A stretch of DNA of 64,000 nucleotides from NCBI GenBank assembly GCA_905182525.1, contig CAJJBV010000002.1, positions 62,001 through 126,000 of the forward strand. Direction: 5' to 3'. The notes beneath the pieces were generated by a model, which ran no database searches, was not told where the DNA came from, and was given only the letters and a program-made list of their open reading frames with translations. Shown here in pieces: positions 22,814 to 29,539 of this stretch (position 1 is its first letter; every line of letters begins with the position of its first letter). The translations under genes and the position numbers were made by a program. This DNA comes from Cryomorphaceae bacterium. Its GTDB lineage: Bacteria > Bacteroidota > Bacteroidia > Flavobacteriales_D > Parvicellaceae.

Positions 22814-22863
22814 TTTAATTTTTTAGTATGATTTAGTAAATATAATTTGAATTTAGATAATTA

Positions 22864-23097
22864 CTAAAACCATTTTAAAATCTTTTTTCCAAATAACGAA
22901 AAAACTAATTTTAACCACCATAATAAAAGTAGTGGAAAAACTAATATTACTAATTTATTATATTCTAATGCCTTAAATAATTCAAAATGCATTAGGTGCA
23001 TGATTGCTCTCGTCATTCCACATCCGTAGCATTCTAAATCAAAAAAAACAACTGAAAAACAAGCACTTTGTCCTTGGTCAAAATAGTCAGCTGGCAA
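22864..23097 (-). CDS. DUF2752 membrane protein, start disrupted
   Basis: Contains the DUF2752 signature C-x-G-C-G-M-T-R-A (CYGCGMTRAIMHL) followed by a second membrane helix. The stated start is a TTG; the open frame runs upstream to 23166 and encodes the family's first membrane helix, but contains no ATG. An ATG at 23170 is one base out of frame, and the two frames meet across a run of four A. That ATG overlaps the end of the TM2 remnant, as expected for the ancestral start. So this is probably a real gene carrying a one-base insertion near its start, or a homopolymer error. Function of the family is unknown. Confidence 0.6.
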   Translation of the reverse strand: MPADYFDQGQSACFSVVFFDLECYGCGMTRAIMHLMHFELFKALEYNKLVILVFPLLLLWWLKLVFSLFGKKILKWF

Positions 23098-23159
23098 AAA
23101 GAATAAAGATAGAGAAGTTATTATTAGCTCTATAATAATAAAGAATTTTAGATTAATTA

Positions 23160-23475
23160 TTAATTTTCATATCTATCAGTAAGTAATTTTATTAAATTAA
23201 TTATAAGACATATTTCATATAATCCAACTGTAAATAGCTATAAGAAACCCTTTCCAATTTGACCTAAGTAAAATTTGTGAGCACCCAATGCTCCAACTAA
23301 TAAAAGTAAAATTAAAGCAACTGTTTTTTTTGTCCTGAAACAGGAGCTTTTTACCAGACTTGACAAGCGTTTTAATAGCTTCTTTTAATTCTTTTTTATT
23401 AGATTAAATTCTTTTTTTAAATCTTTTATTGAAACAGGAGCATTAATATTAATAATCTTATTAGATTTATTTCAT
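23160..23475 (-). pseudogene. Decayed TM2-domain gene
   Basis: The minus strand encodes a clear TM2 domain: a hydrophobic helix, then GALGAHKFYLGQIGKGFL, then a TAG stop (23238-23240), and then in the same frame LFTVGLYEICLIINLIKLL up to a TAA at 23160. Upstream pieces (for example KELKEAIKTLVKSGKK) sit in other frames, so at least two frame shifts and one nonsense codon separate the parts. TM2 genes often neighbour DUF2752 genes in Bacteroidota, which supports the identification. This explains most of the 565 bases between 23098 and 23662; the rest is AT-rich with nothing recognisable. Confidence 0.75.
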
Positions 23476-23662
23476 TAATTAATAAACTATTTAGTTTATT
23501 TTTATGTGGATAGTTCTAAATTCTTAAATGTATATTTAAGTATTATTTATTATCCAATCTCTAATTAAACATTTATTTACATATTTAATTTTCTTTTTAA
23601 TTTCAATTAAAGGAGAGACTCAATTAATTTATAGAAAAGTTAATGATATTTCAATTGAAATT

Positions 23663-24463
23663 ATGTCCTTTAACTTTCGAAATGCTGATTCATTAATTAA
23701 CATAATTGAAAAAGAGTCTAGAAATGATTATTTATTTATTCAATTAAAAACTAATTATTATTGGTGGATTTTAATTACTGGAAACGATAATGAAAATATT
23801 AGGGCTTTAATTCAATCTAATGCTAAAAACACTCTCTCTAATACTAGAATATACAACGACACTAAAAGAGAATGTTTTTGGAGCTCTGAGTTCAGTCACT
23901 TTATTTCTCATGGTTATTTAACAAGGTTACACACTTTATCTAAAAACTATTTGCAATTACTTTCTCATTCTAAAAGCATGTTAAATATTATTGAGAAAAC
24001 ACTAATTAAAGTTGATGATTGCGATTGTTTTAAATTTACAACTGGTTTATTTCATTACTTCATTGAATATGCAAGAAATGAAAGTAATTTTTTTAAAGCA
24101 GGTTTATTGTTTTATCCAGAATCTAATTCAGGATACGGTATTAAGTTATTAAATGAAGCTGCTAAAAGCGAAAATTTAATAATTAGTGCTGAAGCAAATT
24201 ATTTTTTAGCAAGAATATATCATGATAATGAACAGAAAATAAATAGGGCTATTTATCATTACAATATTTTAACAAAATTATATCCTAATAATTTAATTTA
24301 TTTATACTACGAACTAAATGCAATGATTAAAGCCAACTATTCAGAGGAGGTTTTACTAGAAAAAAAACAAAAAGCAATGCTGTCAATTAATAATAATTCA
24401 CAATTAGTTTTGAATCAATCCAATTATTTTAAAAATATTTTTGAGGAAATAAAATTTGAATAA
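23663..24463 (+). CDS. Hypothetical TPR-like protein, start codon apparently lost
   Basis: A 266-residue, helix-rich protein with a TPR-like C-terminal half (AEANYFLARIYHDNEQKINRAIYHYNILTKLYP). The ATG given is probably not the ancestral start. The frame is open back to 23540 and those codons encode a typical signal peptide (hydrophobic LFTYLIFFLISIKGETQ), but with no ATG, GTG or TTG in a suitable place. Either a rare start such as ATT is used or the start was lost. It adjoins two other damaged genes. Function unknown. Confidence 0.5.
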   Translation: MSFNFRNADSLINIIEKESRNDYLFIQLKTNYYWWILITGNDNENIRALIQSNAKNTLSNTRIYNDTKRECFWSSEFSHFISHGYLTRLHTLSKNYLQLLSHSKSMLNIIEKTLIKVDDCDCFKFTTGLFHYFIEYARNESNFFKAGLLFYPESNSGYGIKLLNEAAKSENLIISAEANYFLARIYHDNEQKINRAIYHYNILTKLYPNNLIYLYYELNAMIKANYSEEVLLEKKQKAMLSINNNSQLVLNQSNYFKNIFEEIKFE

Positions 24464-24555
24464 ATAGTATTTAAAGTAGGTGTATTAACGTATAATCACA
24501 TAATTATTTATGATTTATGATAAATATGTTATAAATTAATTAAAAATTAAATATA

Positions 24556-25107
24556 ATGTTAAAAATCTTTAGAAATAATTATCTCTCAAAAACACTAAGT
24601 ATCTTCTTAGCATTCAACGTAATAATACTAACTTCAAGTTTTAGTTTTGTCCCGAAAAAAGTTAAAATTCCTGCTGGAACATTAGTAACTTTAAGATTAA
24701 TACAAAGTGTAAGCTCTACCGATTGTAGTGAAGGTGATATAGTTAATTTATCTGTTTTATATGATGTTAAATCCAATGACAAAACATTGATTACAGCTGG
24801 AACAAGAGCAACTGGTATAGTTTCTTTATGTACTGCTTCGAAAGGCCAAGGTAAGCCCGGAGAAGTAGGAGTTGATATTTCAAATTTAAGAATAAATGGT
24901 TCTACAATCCCATTATCTAGTTCGCCTATAAAAAATAAAGGAGAGGATAAAACTACTTTAGCATGGGGTATTGGAATAGGGGCCTGTGTTTTATTATTTG
25001 GGATTGGAATAGTAGCAGTATTTTTTATTAAGGGCGGAGACGGAGTGCTGAAATCAGGGAAAATTATTGAAGGTAATGTTGTTACGGATACAGAAATTAA
25101 TCTCTAA
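24556..25107 (+). CDS. Secreted/membrane-anchored hypothetical protein
   Basis: A 183-residue protein with an N-terminal signal or anchor (about 12-30). A beta domain follows that starts IPAGTLVTLRLIQSVSS, continues through GDIVNLSV and AGTRATGIVS, and is a widespread periplasmic pattern of unknown role. A second membrane helix (about 135-160) precedes a short tail. It is transcribed toward the YidD operon and its stop codon overlaps the last gene of that operon by four bases. Whether it belongs functionally with that operon is unknown. Confidence 0.65.
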   Translation: MLKIFRNNYLSKTLSIFLAFNVIILTSSFSFVPKKVKIPAGTLVTLRLIQSVSSTDCSEGDIVNLSVLYDVKSNDKTLITAGTRATGIVSLCTASKGQGKPGEVGVDISNLRINGSTIPLSSSPIKNKGEDKTTLAWGIGIGACVLLFGIGIVAVFFIKGGDGVLKSGKIIEGNVVTDTEINL

Positions 25108-25943
25108 TTATTATTATCTAGATTAATAATATTATTCAGATCAATTATTGTCTTATTTGTAATCAACTTGTTTTTTTCTTCAGCAAAATTAATGGCATTT
25201 ATTACACCTCCTATGTAATATCGTTGATAGTAAGGGAACACGCTAAGTATTGCGTCTATAAAGGAATATCTAATAGAGATTATTGTAAACACAGATAGAG
25301 CTGTTGTTGTTAGTAAAAGTGAGTTTAGTCCTGAACTAAAATTGCCTGAATATACCTGACCGGACCCAGGGAGAACCATGCTTAAAGTAGAAGCTACTTT
25401 TGGATTTGTTCTTCTAATCTTTTTTTCTAAACGAGAAAATGAGCTTTCAACTTGATTAATATTTGAGTCTGAAAACTCATTAATTTTCAAAAAATATTTT
25501 TTTGACGACTCAATGTCTCCCTTGTACAAATAAATAATAAATAAATAATAATTTTTTCTGGATTTAAAGTAATTATTAATTTCTTTTATATTTAAAATTT
25601 CAATTACAGCATATTCGTATTTCTCTTGTGACATATAACATTTTGCCATTTCAAAACACACCTCATTTTTCAGACTATCTTTTGTAAGAAGATTATATAT
25701 TAACGAGTAGTGAACTAATGCATTATCATAGGATTTTGTTTTATAGTAACTATCTGCTAGGTAATTTAAATTTGTAATATTATCAGACTCAAAAAAAGCA
25801 ATTCTCTTAAAGTAAGGAATACATAGATCATAATTTTCTGACTCAAAATTATTTGATGCAAATTGAAAAGATTCAGTCTGGTTTTGACTTGTCAAACTTA
25901 CAGATGATAAAAAACTAATTAAATATATTATCCAATTTTTCAT
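25104..25943 (-). CDS. TPR protein with C-terminal PGSGxxYxG membrane domain (copy 2)
   Basis: A 279-residue protein: signal peptide about 1-20, TPR-like helices about 25-175, then LPGSGQVYSGNFSSGLNSLLL (about 192-212) leading into a hydrophobic membrane region. The same layout appears in the gene just upstream, so the two are distant paralogues. The PGSG-x-x-Y-x-G segment resembles that of DUF5683-type proteins. It is the last gene of the operon and overlaps its predecessor by 29 bases. Function unknown; envelope location is inferred. Confidence 0.65.
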   Translation of the reverse strand: MKNWIIYLISFLSSVSLTSQNQTESFQFASNNFESENYDLCIPYFKRIAFFESDNITNLNYLADSYYKTKSYDNALVHYSLIYNLLTKDSLKNEVCFEMAKCYMSQEKYEYAVIEILNIKEINNYFKSRKNYYLFIIYLYKGDIESSKKYFLKINEFSDSNINQVESSFSRLEKKIRRTNPKVASTLSMVLPGSGQVYSGNFSSGLNSLLLTTTALSVFTIISIRYSFIDAILSVFPYYQRYYIGGVINAINFAEEKNKLITNKTIIDLNNIINLDNNN

Positions 25944-26691
25944 TTAAATGCTTTTGTAATTTTTTATTTCTAGTTTTAGCTGATTTATAAGATCCATGTA
26001 TATTCCCAAGATAAAAACTTAATCCTGCAAATGAATAAACCCATCCAAAACCACTTTTAACACCTCTCTTTTTAAATCCCCTGTAAGACAAATAAGAATT
26101 CAATCCAACAAATAAAAAAGAAATAATTCCATCTTTTTTATACCCTGCATATAACTTTCCAGAACCAGGCAATATTGATGAAGCTATTCCAGCTATAATT
26201 GGGCTCTTTTTCTTATACATATTTCTATATAACAATGCACTTTTTAATTTAGGAAAATCTTCTAATTTGGCTGACTGAATTAAACTATCGTCTAAAATAT
26301 TTAATGACAGTTTTAATTTCATACATGTCTGAGAATTACAATTAGATAATTCTTTAAAAAGAGTATCAAAATTTCTATTTAAAAAAAGTAATTTCAGATA
26401 TTCATCTAAAACTTCTTTATTATATTCATTTTGACTTAATGATTTATAAGATGAAATTCCTTTTGAGTAATTTTTTGATTTATTGGCTGAAATCAAATAT
26501 TTTTTGAGAATGATATTATCATCATTTAACAGCTTTGAATATTCATTCATTGCTAGTTCATAATCGAAATTATTAAATAAATAATTAGCATATTTCAAAG
26601 TATTTTCTGAACTGAAATAATTATCTGATTGTCCAATATAGGAGAATACGCATATAAAAAGTGATAATATTAAATTACAAAACCGGATCAT
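25915..26691 (-). CDS. TPR protein with C-terminal PGSGxxYxG membrane domain (copy 1)
   Basis: A 258-residue protein with a signal peptide (about 1-20), weak TPR-like helices to about 150, and the segment LPGSGKLYAGYKKDGIISFLF (about 172-192) followed by a membrane region and a basic tail. It overlaps the YidD gene by 17 bases and the next TPR gene by 29 bases, so translation is probably coupled. The fixed association with a YidD-like protein suggests work on membrane proteins or the outer envelope, which is inference. Confidence 0.65.
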   Translation of the reverse strand: MIRFCNLILSLFICVFSYIGQSDNYFSSENTLKYANYLFNNFDYELAMNEYSKLLNDDNIILKKYLISANKSKNYSKGISSYKSLSQNEYNKEVLDEYLKLLFLNRNFDTLFKELSNCNSQTCMKLKLSLNILDDSLIQSAKLEDFPKLKSALLYRNMYKKKSPIIAGIASSILPGSGKLYAGYKKDGIISFLFVGLNSYLSYRGFKKRGVKSGFGWVYSFAGLSFYLGNIHGSYKSAKTRNKKLQKHLNEKLDNIFN

Positions 26692-27046
26692 ACAGTAGAT
26701 TAGATGTTTTATGAATATGGTAATCCTTTCTGTTTAATCCGTTACACCTTGTAAGTCTATCAAAAGTGTTAAATAAGCCTTTTAAAAATCCTAATTTTTG
26801 AAAAGACTGAGTTCCGTATACAGAACAAGATGGATAAAAATTACAATCTCCGGAATCCTGAGATGAAATAAATTTTTTATAAAATGAAAACAATCCATAG
26901 GATGTGCTTTTGTCTTTTTTAACATTATAACTAGTAATAACATTTTCTTCATTCAAACTTTGAGAAAAAGTAATGTCTTCTTTATTCTGAGCAAAAGAAA
27001 AGTTAATCAGAAAAATAAAACTCAGAACTATAATTTTTTTGGTCAT
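26675..27046 (-). CDS. YidD-family protein with signal peptide
   Basis: A 123-residue protein (ATG at 27046; a TTG one codon earlier is less likely). A signal peptide (about 1-19, ending NFSFAQ) and a linker precede a YidD domain: FYKKFIS, the Cys-containing CNFYPSCSVYG, the helix FQKLGFLKGLFNTFDRLTRC and N. YidD normally is a short cytosolic-side protein that assists YidC insertion; the export signal and about 30-residue linker here are additions. It overlaps the upstream gene by 44 bases and the downstream gene by 17. Confidence 0.82.
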   Translation of the reverse strand: MTKKIIVLSFIFLINFSFAQNKEDITFSQSLNEENVITSYNVKKDKSTSYGLFSFYKKFISSQDSGDCNFYPSCSVYGTQSFQKLGFLKGLFNTFDRLTRCNGLNRKDYHIHKTSNLLYDPVL

Positions 27047-27689
27047 CAAAATTATTGATTTTTATATTTTTATATGTAGTTATTTTGTACTCAGGTTTAT
27101 CATTAATAAACGCAATTTGAGTGATTTTAGATGGTATCATTAAGCCGTCAATATTAGTATAATCTTCAAAAAACTGTTTGCTAATAATAGACCCATCTGG
27201 ATGAAAACTTACAAGGCCAAATATTAATTTGTTTTTCTGACTCATTATAATTTTTCCCGACCTGTACTTTTTATTTTTAAACTTTGGCTCCCAAGTGGTA
27301 ATAATTTGGTCTTGGTCATTTTTAGTTTTAACCAGCTCATAAGAGCTAGAATTTAAACCATAATATTCCATTTGGCTATTTAACACTAAATTAAAAATAT
27401 TAAATTTTAAACCAGTTGTACTTTTATAATTTTCCACAACCTTATCATCAATTAACCTGTATACCATTGAATCGGTATATATCAAAACCTCCCTATTAGG
27501 AAACTTGATAGAATAATACATTGACGCTAGATTTTTATCGTAATACATTTTACCTGTTGTAATTCTGCTTGTCGAATCAATTTCCTTAATTGTAATTTCA
27601 GATTCAATTCTTGAAAATACTTTTTGTCCAATATATAAGAGCGGAGACAGAAATATTACAGAAAATAGTGTTAGTCTTAGAAATTTCAT
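27003..27689 (-). CDS. Secreted LolA-like hypothetical protein
   Basis: A 228-residue protein with a signal peptide (about 1-21). Its beta-rich body reads like a LolA/outer-membrane lipoprotein-sorting fold: repeated short strands, TGKMYYDKNLASMYYSIKFP, and a closing basic strand near IPSKITQIAF. The fold call is by eye only. Its ATG lies directly after the T-tract of a hairpin terminator, with no normal leader. It overlaps the YidD gene by 44 bases. A damaged second copy lies at 28363-28801. Confidence 0.65.
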   Translation of the reverse strand: MKFLRLTLFSVIFLSPLLYIGQKVFSRIESEITIKEIDSTSRITTGKMYYDKNLASMYYSIKFPNREVLIYTDSMVYRLIDDKVVENYKSTTGLKFNIFNLVLNSQMEYYGLNSSSYELVKTKNDQDQIITTWEPKFKNKKYRSGKIIMSQKNKLIFGLVSFHPDGSIISKQFFEDYTNIDGLMIPSKITQIAFINDKPEYKITTYKNIKINNFDDQKNYSSEFYFSD

Positions 27690-27690
27690 A

Positions 27691-27716
27691 AAAAAAAAGC
27701 TCGATTATTCGAGCTT
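27691..27716 (-). terminator. Hairpin terminator between small secreted gene and LolA-like gene (copy 1)
   Basis: Perfect 8-base inverted repeat AAGCTCGA / TCGAGCTT with a TTAT loop, followed on the minus strand by eight T. The LolA-like gene's ATG (27689) comes one base after the T-tract, so the structure could act as an attenuator for the YidD operon. Confidence 0.85.
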
Positions 27717-27736
27717 ATAGATTTAATTTATAATTT

Positions 27737-28189
27737 TTAATAATAATAATTATAATCCAACACGAGAGCTACTACCAATGCAATAACATCAAGTGCTATA
27801 GCGGATCCACAACCAATCCAGTAAGATTTTTTCTGGGATTGTTCTTTATCATTATTAGTAGCAACCACAAAAAGTCCTACTGGCCAGCAACAGAATCCCC
27901 AAGCAAAAGCTCCCCAATCCATATCGTCACTGGTAAAAGCGTTACGAACCATAAGGGAGGATTTATAGTTGGTGTCAAAAGAACTATTTAGAAGATTATT
28001 ATTTATAATTTTTCTATTTATTTCATCAATAGTAGAATTTTGATTTTGTGCTATTATATTTTCCACAACTTCTAAATCTGATAATTCAGTATTAATTTCA
28101 GAAAGGTCGTAAGAAAATAAATCAACATTAGATGCACTAGCTTTAAATATAAAAGCAAATGCTAAAACAACTGTAAAAATTCTTTTCAT
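27737..28189 (-). CDS. Small secreted WGFCCWP protein (copy 1)
   Basis: A 150-residue protein: signal peptide about 1-19, an acidic helical middle, then the hydrophobic, Cys-containing core DMDWGAFAWGFCCWPVGLFVVATN (given here only as its key parts DMDWGAF, WGFCCWP, GLFVV) at about residues 91-113, and a second hydrophobic helix to the end. The first 107 residues or so are nearly identical to the copy at 28864, but the tails differ. It heads a minus-strand unit ending in a hairpin terminator. Function unknown; the core may insert into a membrane. Confidence 0.65.
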   Translation of the reverse strand: MKRIFTVVLAFAFIFKASASNVDLFSYDLSEINTELSDLEVVENIIAQNQNSTIDEINRKIINNNLLNSSFDTNYKSSLMVRNAFTSDDMDWGAFAWGFCCWPVGLFVVATNNDKEQSQKKSYWIGCGSAIALDVIALVVALVLDYNYYY

Positions 28190-28362
28190 AATTTTTATTA
28201 ATGTAAATTAAATATAATAAAAAAATCTTGTTTACTAACAAATAATTTAATTTAAAATTTTCGTTGGTTTCTTAATGATGTTTTAAATTTTACTCAATGC
28301 TGGATTCTCTTGCAGATTTTTTTCAGATTAATTAATAATATATCTTAATATACAACATAATT

Positions 28363-28801
28363 TTTTTAGACCTGTACTTTTTATTTTTAAACTTTGGCTC
28401 CCAAGTATTAATAATTTGATCTTGGTCATTTTTAGTTTTAACCAGCTCATAAGAGCTAGAATTTAAACCATAATATTCCATTTGGCTATTTAATACTAAA
28501 TTAAAAATATTAAATTTGAAGCCATTTGTACTTTTATAATTTTCAGCAATTTTATCATCAATTAACCTTTATATCATTAAATCTGTATATACTACAACTT
28601 CATTACTGGGAAACTTGATAGAATAATATATTGCCCCAAAATTCTTATCATAGAACATTTTACTTGTTGTAATTCTACTTGTTGAATCAACTTCTTTAAT
28701 TGTAATTCCCCTTTCAATTCTTGAAAATGCTTTTTGAAGTCGAACCCTTTAGGGTCAAACATAAACATTACAGAAAATAGTATAAATCTAAGAAATTTTA
28801 T
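28363..28801 (-). pseudogene. Truncated second copy of the LolA-like gene
   Basis: Aligns along its length with the intact gene at 27003-27689, but it is broken four ways. The start codon is ATA (28799-28801) instead of ATG. The frame shifts near 28735 where unrelated bases replace the signal-peptide end. A codon for Tyr became TAA near 28570. The 3' third is missing beyond about 28370. It is a clear relic of the tandem duplication and cannot give a working protein. Confidence 0.85.
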
Positions 28802-28831
28802 AAAAAAAAAAGCTCGAATAATCGAGCTTTT
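28802..28831 (-). terminator. Hairpin terminator after small secreted gene (copy 2)
   Basis: Same stem as copy 1, AAGCTCGA / TCGAGCTT, with an ATAA loop and a run of T on the minus strand. The loop changed but both stem arms are unchanged between copies. Confidence 0.85.
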
Positions 28832-28863
28832 CATTAAGTGATTTATTATTTAATAAAGGTTAT

Positions 28864-29295
28864 TTACCCTGCAGTGGCAACATATGAAATTACTTGAACA
28901 ATTAAACCTGTGAGCCAACCAACAAAAAATGAAGTTTTTTGAGCTTTTTCTTTGTCTTTATTTGTCACAACAACAAAAAACCCAACAGGCCAGCAACAGA
29001 ATCCCCAAGCAAAAGCTCCCCAATCCATATCGTCACTGGTAAAAGCATTACGGGACATAAGAGAAGATTTATAGTTGGTGTCAAAAGAACTATTTAGAAA
29101 ATTATTATTTATAATTTTTCTATTTACCTCCTCAATTGTAGAATTTTGATTTTGTGCTATTACATTTTCCACAACTTCTAAATCTGATAATTCAGTATTA
29201 ATTTCAGAAAGGTCGTAAGAAAATAAATCAGCGTTTGATGCACTAGCGTTAAATACAAAAGCTAATGCTAAAATAAGTGTAGATATTCTTTTCAT
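28864..29295 (-). CDS. Small secreted WGFCCWP protein (copy 2)
   Basis: A 143-residue paralogue of the 27737 gene. Signal peptide, acidic middle and the DMDWGAF...WGFCCWPVG core match almost residue for residue; after about residue 110 the sequence departs (KAQKTSFFVGWLTGLIVQ) and ends in a different hydrophobic helix. It is followed by its own hairpin terminator. The 244 bases upstream (29296-29539) hold the duplicated ACTCAATGCTGGATT segment and otherwise nothing I recognise. Function unknown. Confidence 0.65.
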   Translation of the reverse strand: MKRISTLILALAFVFNASASNADLFSYDLSEINTELSDLEVVENVIAQNQNSTIEEVNRKIINNNFLNSSFDTNYKSSLMSRNAFTSDDMDWGAFAWGFCCWPVGFFVVVTNKDKEKAQKTSFFVGWLTGLIVQVISYVATAG

Positions 29296-29539
29296 AATTT
29301 TATTTTTTATTAATTAAACTAATATATAAAAAAAAATCTTTTTAATTATGTTTTAATTTTACTCAATGCTGGATTTTCTGACTATTTTCATAAATACTTA
29401 AAATATGTTTATTGAGTTAATGTTCTCCTTTTCTGTCTTTTATTCCCCAAAAATTGCCACTATTAAAGTTAAAAGGTATATTTTTTTCATATTTTTGTTT
29501 TTATAATTAATATTTAAGAATACAATATAATTTTTTTTT

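Follow-up and report, generated by a model that had tools for sequence, protein, structure and literature searches.

An exported YidD and its TPR partners at the core of a conserved Bacteroidota gene block that very probably encodes an undescribed cell-envelope machine

The minus strand of a 64,000-nucleotide stretch of DNA from a Cryomorphaceae bacterium (assembly GCA_905182525.1, contig CAJJBV010000002.1, positions 62,001-126,000 of the forward strand; GTDB lineage Bacteria; Bacteroidota; Bacteroidia; Flavobacteriales_D; Parvicellaceae), here called the window, encodes a YidD protein behind a signal peptide (sYidD) among other secreted and membrane proteins. Judged from gene order and sequence, the four to five proteins grouped around this exported YidD, which recur in the same order in distant Bacteroidota, are very probably the parts of a real, undescribed cell-envelope machine. 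Its core is sYidD together with proteins that join tetratricopeptide repeats (TPR) to a PGxG membrane segment (TPR/PGxG proteins); a LolA-like protein and a small exported hairpin protein are a module added in fewer lineages. The gene system counts as new because no described system was found with the same set of parts; this claim of newness is about the set of genes and does not extend to what they do.

In the direction of transcription, the block (all minus strand, window coordinates) runs from two genes for WGFCCWP proteins, an upstream copy at 28864-29295 and a copy at 27737-28189 beside the intact LolA-like gene (78% identical; small, exported, with a C-terminal hydrophobic hairpin), through a LolA-like exported protein of 228 residues (27003-27689) and sYidD of 123 residues (26675-27046) to two exported TPR proteins, TPR1 (25915-26691) and TPR2 (25104-25943). 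Open reading frames and Pfam matches bear out the minus-strand run that the initial annotation had described, and the overlaps it gave for the last four genes, 44 bases for LolA-like/sYidD, 17 for sYidD/TPR1 and 29 for TPR1/TPR2, are exact. Such overlaps suggest that the block genes are translationally coupled.

YidD normally aids protein insertion at the inner membrane, on its cytoplasmic face. The window protein resembles the YidD family, E. coli YidD included, in scoring above curated cut-offs (PF01809, 63.5 bits against 27, E=1.6e-17; TIGR00278, 57.2 bits against 40) and in keeping the Cys-x5-CysSer core motif, of which both cysteines are present at all sYidD loci where they can be read. 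It appears to depart from the short, signal-less type of the cytoplasmic face in its signal-peptide N-terminus (MTKKIIVLSFIFLINFSFAQ), read from an ATG one codon inside the listed TTG. An ordinary YidD of 74 residues is encoded elsewhere in the genome (G000:C2:311431), and the exported protein is therefore a second copy, a paralogue. Exported YidDs of ~130-160 residues occur in many Bacteroidota, as seen both in YidD searches and in fetched loci, and a simple heuristic finds hydrophobic, signal-like N-termini at 43 of 57 sYidD loci; within the window's order, the distribution of sYidD is patchy.

A TPR/PGxG partner stands at 56 of the 57 sYidD loci examined, and LolA at 23. Most sampled genomes of two families, f27 and f45, carry a second YidD, and all 22 of their fetched second-YidD loci hold sYidD followed by two TPR/PGxG genes; the downstream pair is absent at the other fetched YidD loci, which were taken as ordinary YidD, a few of them on less close inspection. 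The initial annotation had presented five families as one block, a view that a signal-peptide YidD occurring mostly without the LolA-like and TPR families would have called into question. The linkage proves conserved, with TPR nearly always present, but the unit had been drawn too wide: sYidD with TPR/PGxG and without LolA is a commoner arrangement than with it.

The same association is met from the LolA side. Relatives of the LolA-like protein beside sYidD first came to light at loci L060, L061 and L062. In a check less dependent on sYidD, LolA-only profiles run on 392 Bacteroidota genomes (5 with a match) and on the orders of three carriers added 19 complete loci from other families of Bacteroidota (L086, from the 392-genome search, and the 18 loci L116-L133). 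sYidD is the next gene downstream in all 19, with the caveat that the seed profile drew mostly on loci first found through sYidD. In total, the LolA-like gene lies directly upstream of sYidD in 23/23 complete loci, window included, followed by TPR1 and TPR2 in all except L133; weak matches (L134/G233, E=4.9e-4; L102/G655, E=1.3e-5) and a fragment ending at a contig end (L135/L089) were left out of this count. Spacing from sYidD is nearly constant, with LolA at about -740, TPR1 at about +440 and TPR2 at about +1260 bp. Identity to the window LolA-like protein is only 14-32%, and a gene order that persists at this divergence argues for selection over recent shared ancestry. Searches were confined to Bacteroidota, bar one narrow DNA-pattern scan: a LolA alignment of five rows proved too divergent to serve as its pattern, and one of three rows recovered Kapabacteria-type loci only. 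One genome (G692) has two LolA-sYidD loci, L123 and L133, with LolA proteins of different clades; L133 is the one that lacks TPR genes.

Could an ordinary YidD duplicate simply have acquired a signal peptide while lying among exported genes that have nothing to do with it? The patchiness in the window's order, and a LolA search that found the LolA-like gene in none of the 38 remaining genomes of the family, would fit such an origin. With sYidD at every complete LolA locus and TPR at 56/57 sYidD loci, spread over many families, this account is next to impossible; chance clustering is ruled out, and the block is a conserved one.

Both TPR proteins end in a membrane segment of the PGxGxxYxG type, PGxGKxYAG in TPR1 (LPGSGKLYAG) and PGxGQxYxG in TPR2 (LPGSGQVYSG, DUF5683/TM2-like). 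The repeats of TPR2 are recognised by Pfam (TPR_2, E=8e-6). TPR1 is conserved across a 30-row alignment, and its AlphaFold model (predicted local distance difference test, pLDDT, 88) consists of paired TPR-like helices with a long helical hairpin at the C-terminus; Foldseek relates the model to TPR repeats only, with no match at E<=0.001. The segment is shared with DUF5683 (PF18935), yet the matches stay below the cut-off (TPR2, 17.9 bits against 26.7, E=0.003; TPR1, no match; E<=0.01 in 3 of 30 TPR1 family members), and here the segment forms one protein with TPR repeats and is linked to sYidD. Comparison of the TPR1 C-terminus with a TM2 profile gives a weak signal.

The ties within the core go beyond adjacency. 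sYidD and a TPR/PGxG protein are fused into a single protein in L004, L008 and L066, and at many loci (L117-L131) the signal peptide of TPR2 (FCLICIFLC-like) is coded out of frame within the conserved tail of TPR1 (FDxHIPLR-like), the overlap spanning 56-77 bases in the cases checked. The fusions, the strict order and spacing and the invariant Cys-x5-Cys, which might form a periplasmic disulfide, would also suit a stable envelope assembly, a scaffold or sensor made of TPR1, TPR2, the small hairpin protein and sYidD, in which sYidD is a structural subunit that inserts nothing. We regard such an assembly as unlikely: the YidD core motif is retained, not eroded, and a carrier-type LolA fold would be unexpected in a static structure.

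That the LolA-like protein adopts a LolA-type beta half-barrel fold is supported by its AlphaFold model (pLDDT 86), whose best PDB matches by Foldseek belong to the LolA superfamily: 3buu (E=3.2e-11), P. gingivalis LolA3 (9tp6, E=3.1e-10) and P. aeruginosa LolA (2w7q, E=1.9e-9). By sequence, it is no Lol-pathway LolA above cut-off: the window protein reaches 18.1 bits against 30 for Pfam LolA_like (E=0.0022) and has no PF03548 match at E<=1, and a single one of 21 LolA-like members matches PF03548 (E=0.0023). It thus shares export and the superfamily fold with the Lol system, including the LolA1/2/3 and LolB proteins of Bacteroidota (PMC11885536; PMC13103446), and differs from it in its linkage to sYidD and TPR, in its very low sequence identity, in the absence of LolB, LolC, LolD and LolE from the block and in being additional to an ordinary LolA, which is encoded elsewhere in the genomes tested (weakly recognised in G000). 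Neither paper mentions YidD or TPR partners.

The fold invites a second alternative, in which the LolA-like protein would ferry a lipid, a pigment or a lipoprotein from one membrane to another, with sYidD, TPR1, TPR2 and the TM2 protein as membrane-bound donor or acceptor. Bacteroidota use extra LolA copies for cargo of other kinds, lolA2/lolB2 of the flexirubin operon among them (PMC11885536), and CATI/PEGA-type lipoprotein genes lie directly upstream of sYidD in L066, L070 and L074 and nearby in L061. Such a route is rather doubtful, given that the block has no lipid enzyme and no LolB or LolCDE partner, that the commoner sYidD-TPR core has no LolA and that the genomes tested encode an ordinary LolA elsewhere.

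The small proteins of the window, for which the initial annotation had suggested a delivery route, turn out to be one version of a recurrent neighbour rather than a fixed family. Of the 23 LolA loci, 22 have as a neighbour a small exported protein that carries a hydrophobic hairpin: a TM2 protein at 16, a WGFC protein at two (window included) and a third type at four (L061, L062, L084/L086, L116), with no recognised small hairpin protein at L133. The TM2 genes lie convergent just beyond TPR2, while the WGFC genes of the window and L132 and those of the third type, marked by an IGKD/VGKD...Y..A.T..Y motif, lie upstream of LolA. Pfam TM2 (PF05154) matches 14 of 17 aligned small block proteins, and in 6/7 TM2-type genomes tested the block gene is the only above-cut-off TM2 match in the whole genome. 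Compared with TM2 proteins at large, those of the block stand out in being exported, in the conservation of an N-terminal stretch and in ending with an FFMW tail. Exported TM2 proteins have been described as being of unknown function (PMC3861447).

The WGFCCWP protein at 27737-28189 is homologous to its L132 counterpart (local score 90, against a maximum of 64 in 2000 block shuffles). It is probably not a plain TM2 protein, having neither a PF05154 match nor a significant profile match to the TM2 set; its N-terminal stretch does no better than shuffles against that set, and that of the L132 protein does (0/1000 shuffles). Profile comparison of the WGFCCWP and GKD-hairpin types gives only a weak sign of homology. 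A tree of the LolA-like proteins splits into the same three groups, namely window, L132 and L133 (support 100/99), L061, L062, L084 and L116 (99/97) and the TM2-type remainder, with several long branches that leave its fine detail unsure. This match between LolA clade and type of small protein is plausibly the pattern expected of a carrier and its client.

A delivery route for small hydrophobic proteins is a plausible fit to the anatomy of the block, and we propose, with confidence somewhat short of even, that sYidD, the LolA-like protein and the TPR proteins form a periplasm-facing machine that handles the small exported hairpin proteins. The small protein (TM2, WGFC or GKD-hairpin type) would leave the cytoplasm via Sec by its own signal peptide; sYidD, on the periplasmic side, would encounter the hairpin as it emerges, just as nascent membrane proteins encounter ordinary YidD on the cytoplasmic side; the LolA-like protein would take the hairpin, or a lipid attached to it, into its groove and so shield it, much as lipoproteins are shielded by LolA; finally, TPR1 and TPR2, held in the membrane by TM2-like hairpins of their own, would serve as receptor or scaffold to place the product in a membrane. 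Sequence and gene order establish the protein families, their exported design and their conserved linkage, order and spacing; formation of a complex, the role of the small protein as client and the destination membrane are the parts of this scheme that we infer. In a more specific version, offered tentatively and not our expectation, a YidD-type factor acting beyond the cytoplasm and a LolA-type carrier would make up a dedicated pathway by which small alpha-helical hairpin proteins (TM2 family members and their analogues) cross the periplasm and become inserted, the outer membrane being one possible target.

A machine with a client is the simplest reading because the biochemical themes that can be recognised are limited to a YidD factor, a carrier of LolA-type fold, TPR scaffolds whose anchors are TM2-like and, next to them, a hairpin protein. 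Order and spacing, sYidD at all 19 loci reached through the LolA profiles, the sYidD-TPR fusions, the TPR1/TPR2 overlaps, the nearly constant hairpin neighbour, mostly of TM2 type and often the sole TM2 match of its genome, the agreement of LolA clade with small-protein type, the LolA fold and the preserved YidD motif speak for it. Several points weigh against it. How ordinary YidD itself works is little understood, and the third YidD cysteine is substituted in many sYidD members. The f27 and f45 loci combine sYidD with TPR but have no LolA and no small hairpin protein that could be recognised; the machine may therefore serve other or more varied clients, and the core may have a more general role. 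Finally, the co-variation of LolA clade and small-protein type may arise from plain linked inheritance alone.

Among known proteins, YidD is the closest point of reference, named a putative insertion efficiency factor in PMC8082313, which cites Yu et al. (2011); sYidD differs in its signal peptide, in being a second copy and in sharing an operon with TPR/PGxG (and LolA-like) genes, which is not the context usual for YidD. Full-text literature searches found no exported-YidD system, an absence that is no proof since many subscription papers lay outside their reach. If the proposed scheme is true, the block would represent a new type of envelope biogenesis machine, in which a conserved exported YidD is tied to a LolA-like carrier, TPR/TM2-like anchors and TM2-domain proteins. 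It would give exported TM2 proteins a genetic context and open a convenient way to study how the periplasm deals with helical membrane segments.

In the window, the block occupies an accessory stretch between trpS and an acyltransferase gene (22814-29539). The two genes adjoin with nothing between them in four same-genus genomes (L136, L137, L138, L141; gap of 84-85 bp as measured in L136 and L137), and the LolA search found the LolA-like gene in 0/38 other genomes of the family; the block is therefore an accessory island at a variable site. Its history includes a tandem duplication, absent from the initial annotation, that took in the WGFCCWP gene and a portion of the LolA gene (28357-29344 against 27247-28234, 83.7% identity), in which the LolA part of the upstream duplicate (28357-28834, minus strand, recognised by the LolA profile) is broken by one TGA and two TAA stops. 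A patchy island with duplicated and decayed small-protein and LolA copies might suggest a weapon, with membrane-active, bacteriocin-like hairpin proteins and the remainder as an export or immunity module. This is improbable: the sequence conservation of the TM2 proteins and the frequent presence of the block in one copy speak against it, and neither a secretion apparatus nor a defence gene could be recognised at the loci read.

Insertions between trpS and the acyltransferase gene vary within the genus. Those four genomes have none, and two others (L139, L140) carry different cargo there, a DUF2752-like gene and lipoproteins, some with a C-terminus that is TM2-like as judged by eye. Beside the window block remain a DUF2752 gene (22864-23097) and a broken TM2-domain gene with an in-frame TAG (23190-23330, minus strand; G000:C2:85190-85330; PF05154, E=5.1e-12), the latter likewise an addition to the initial annotation. 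So is the gene at 24556-25107 on the plus strand, convergent with TPR2, which encodes an exported protein of 183 residues with one C-terminal membrane segment, a possible accessory; its AGTxVxL-type family recurs directly downstream of the sYidD-TPR fusions in L004 (8830-9357) and L008 (414-944). At all four unfused sYidD-TPR loci of the window's order (L003, L005, L006, L007), a different family of exported proteins of ~575-606 residues, split into two open reading frames in L005, is convergent with the sYidD-TPR1-TPR2 operon.

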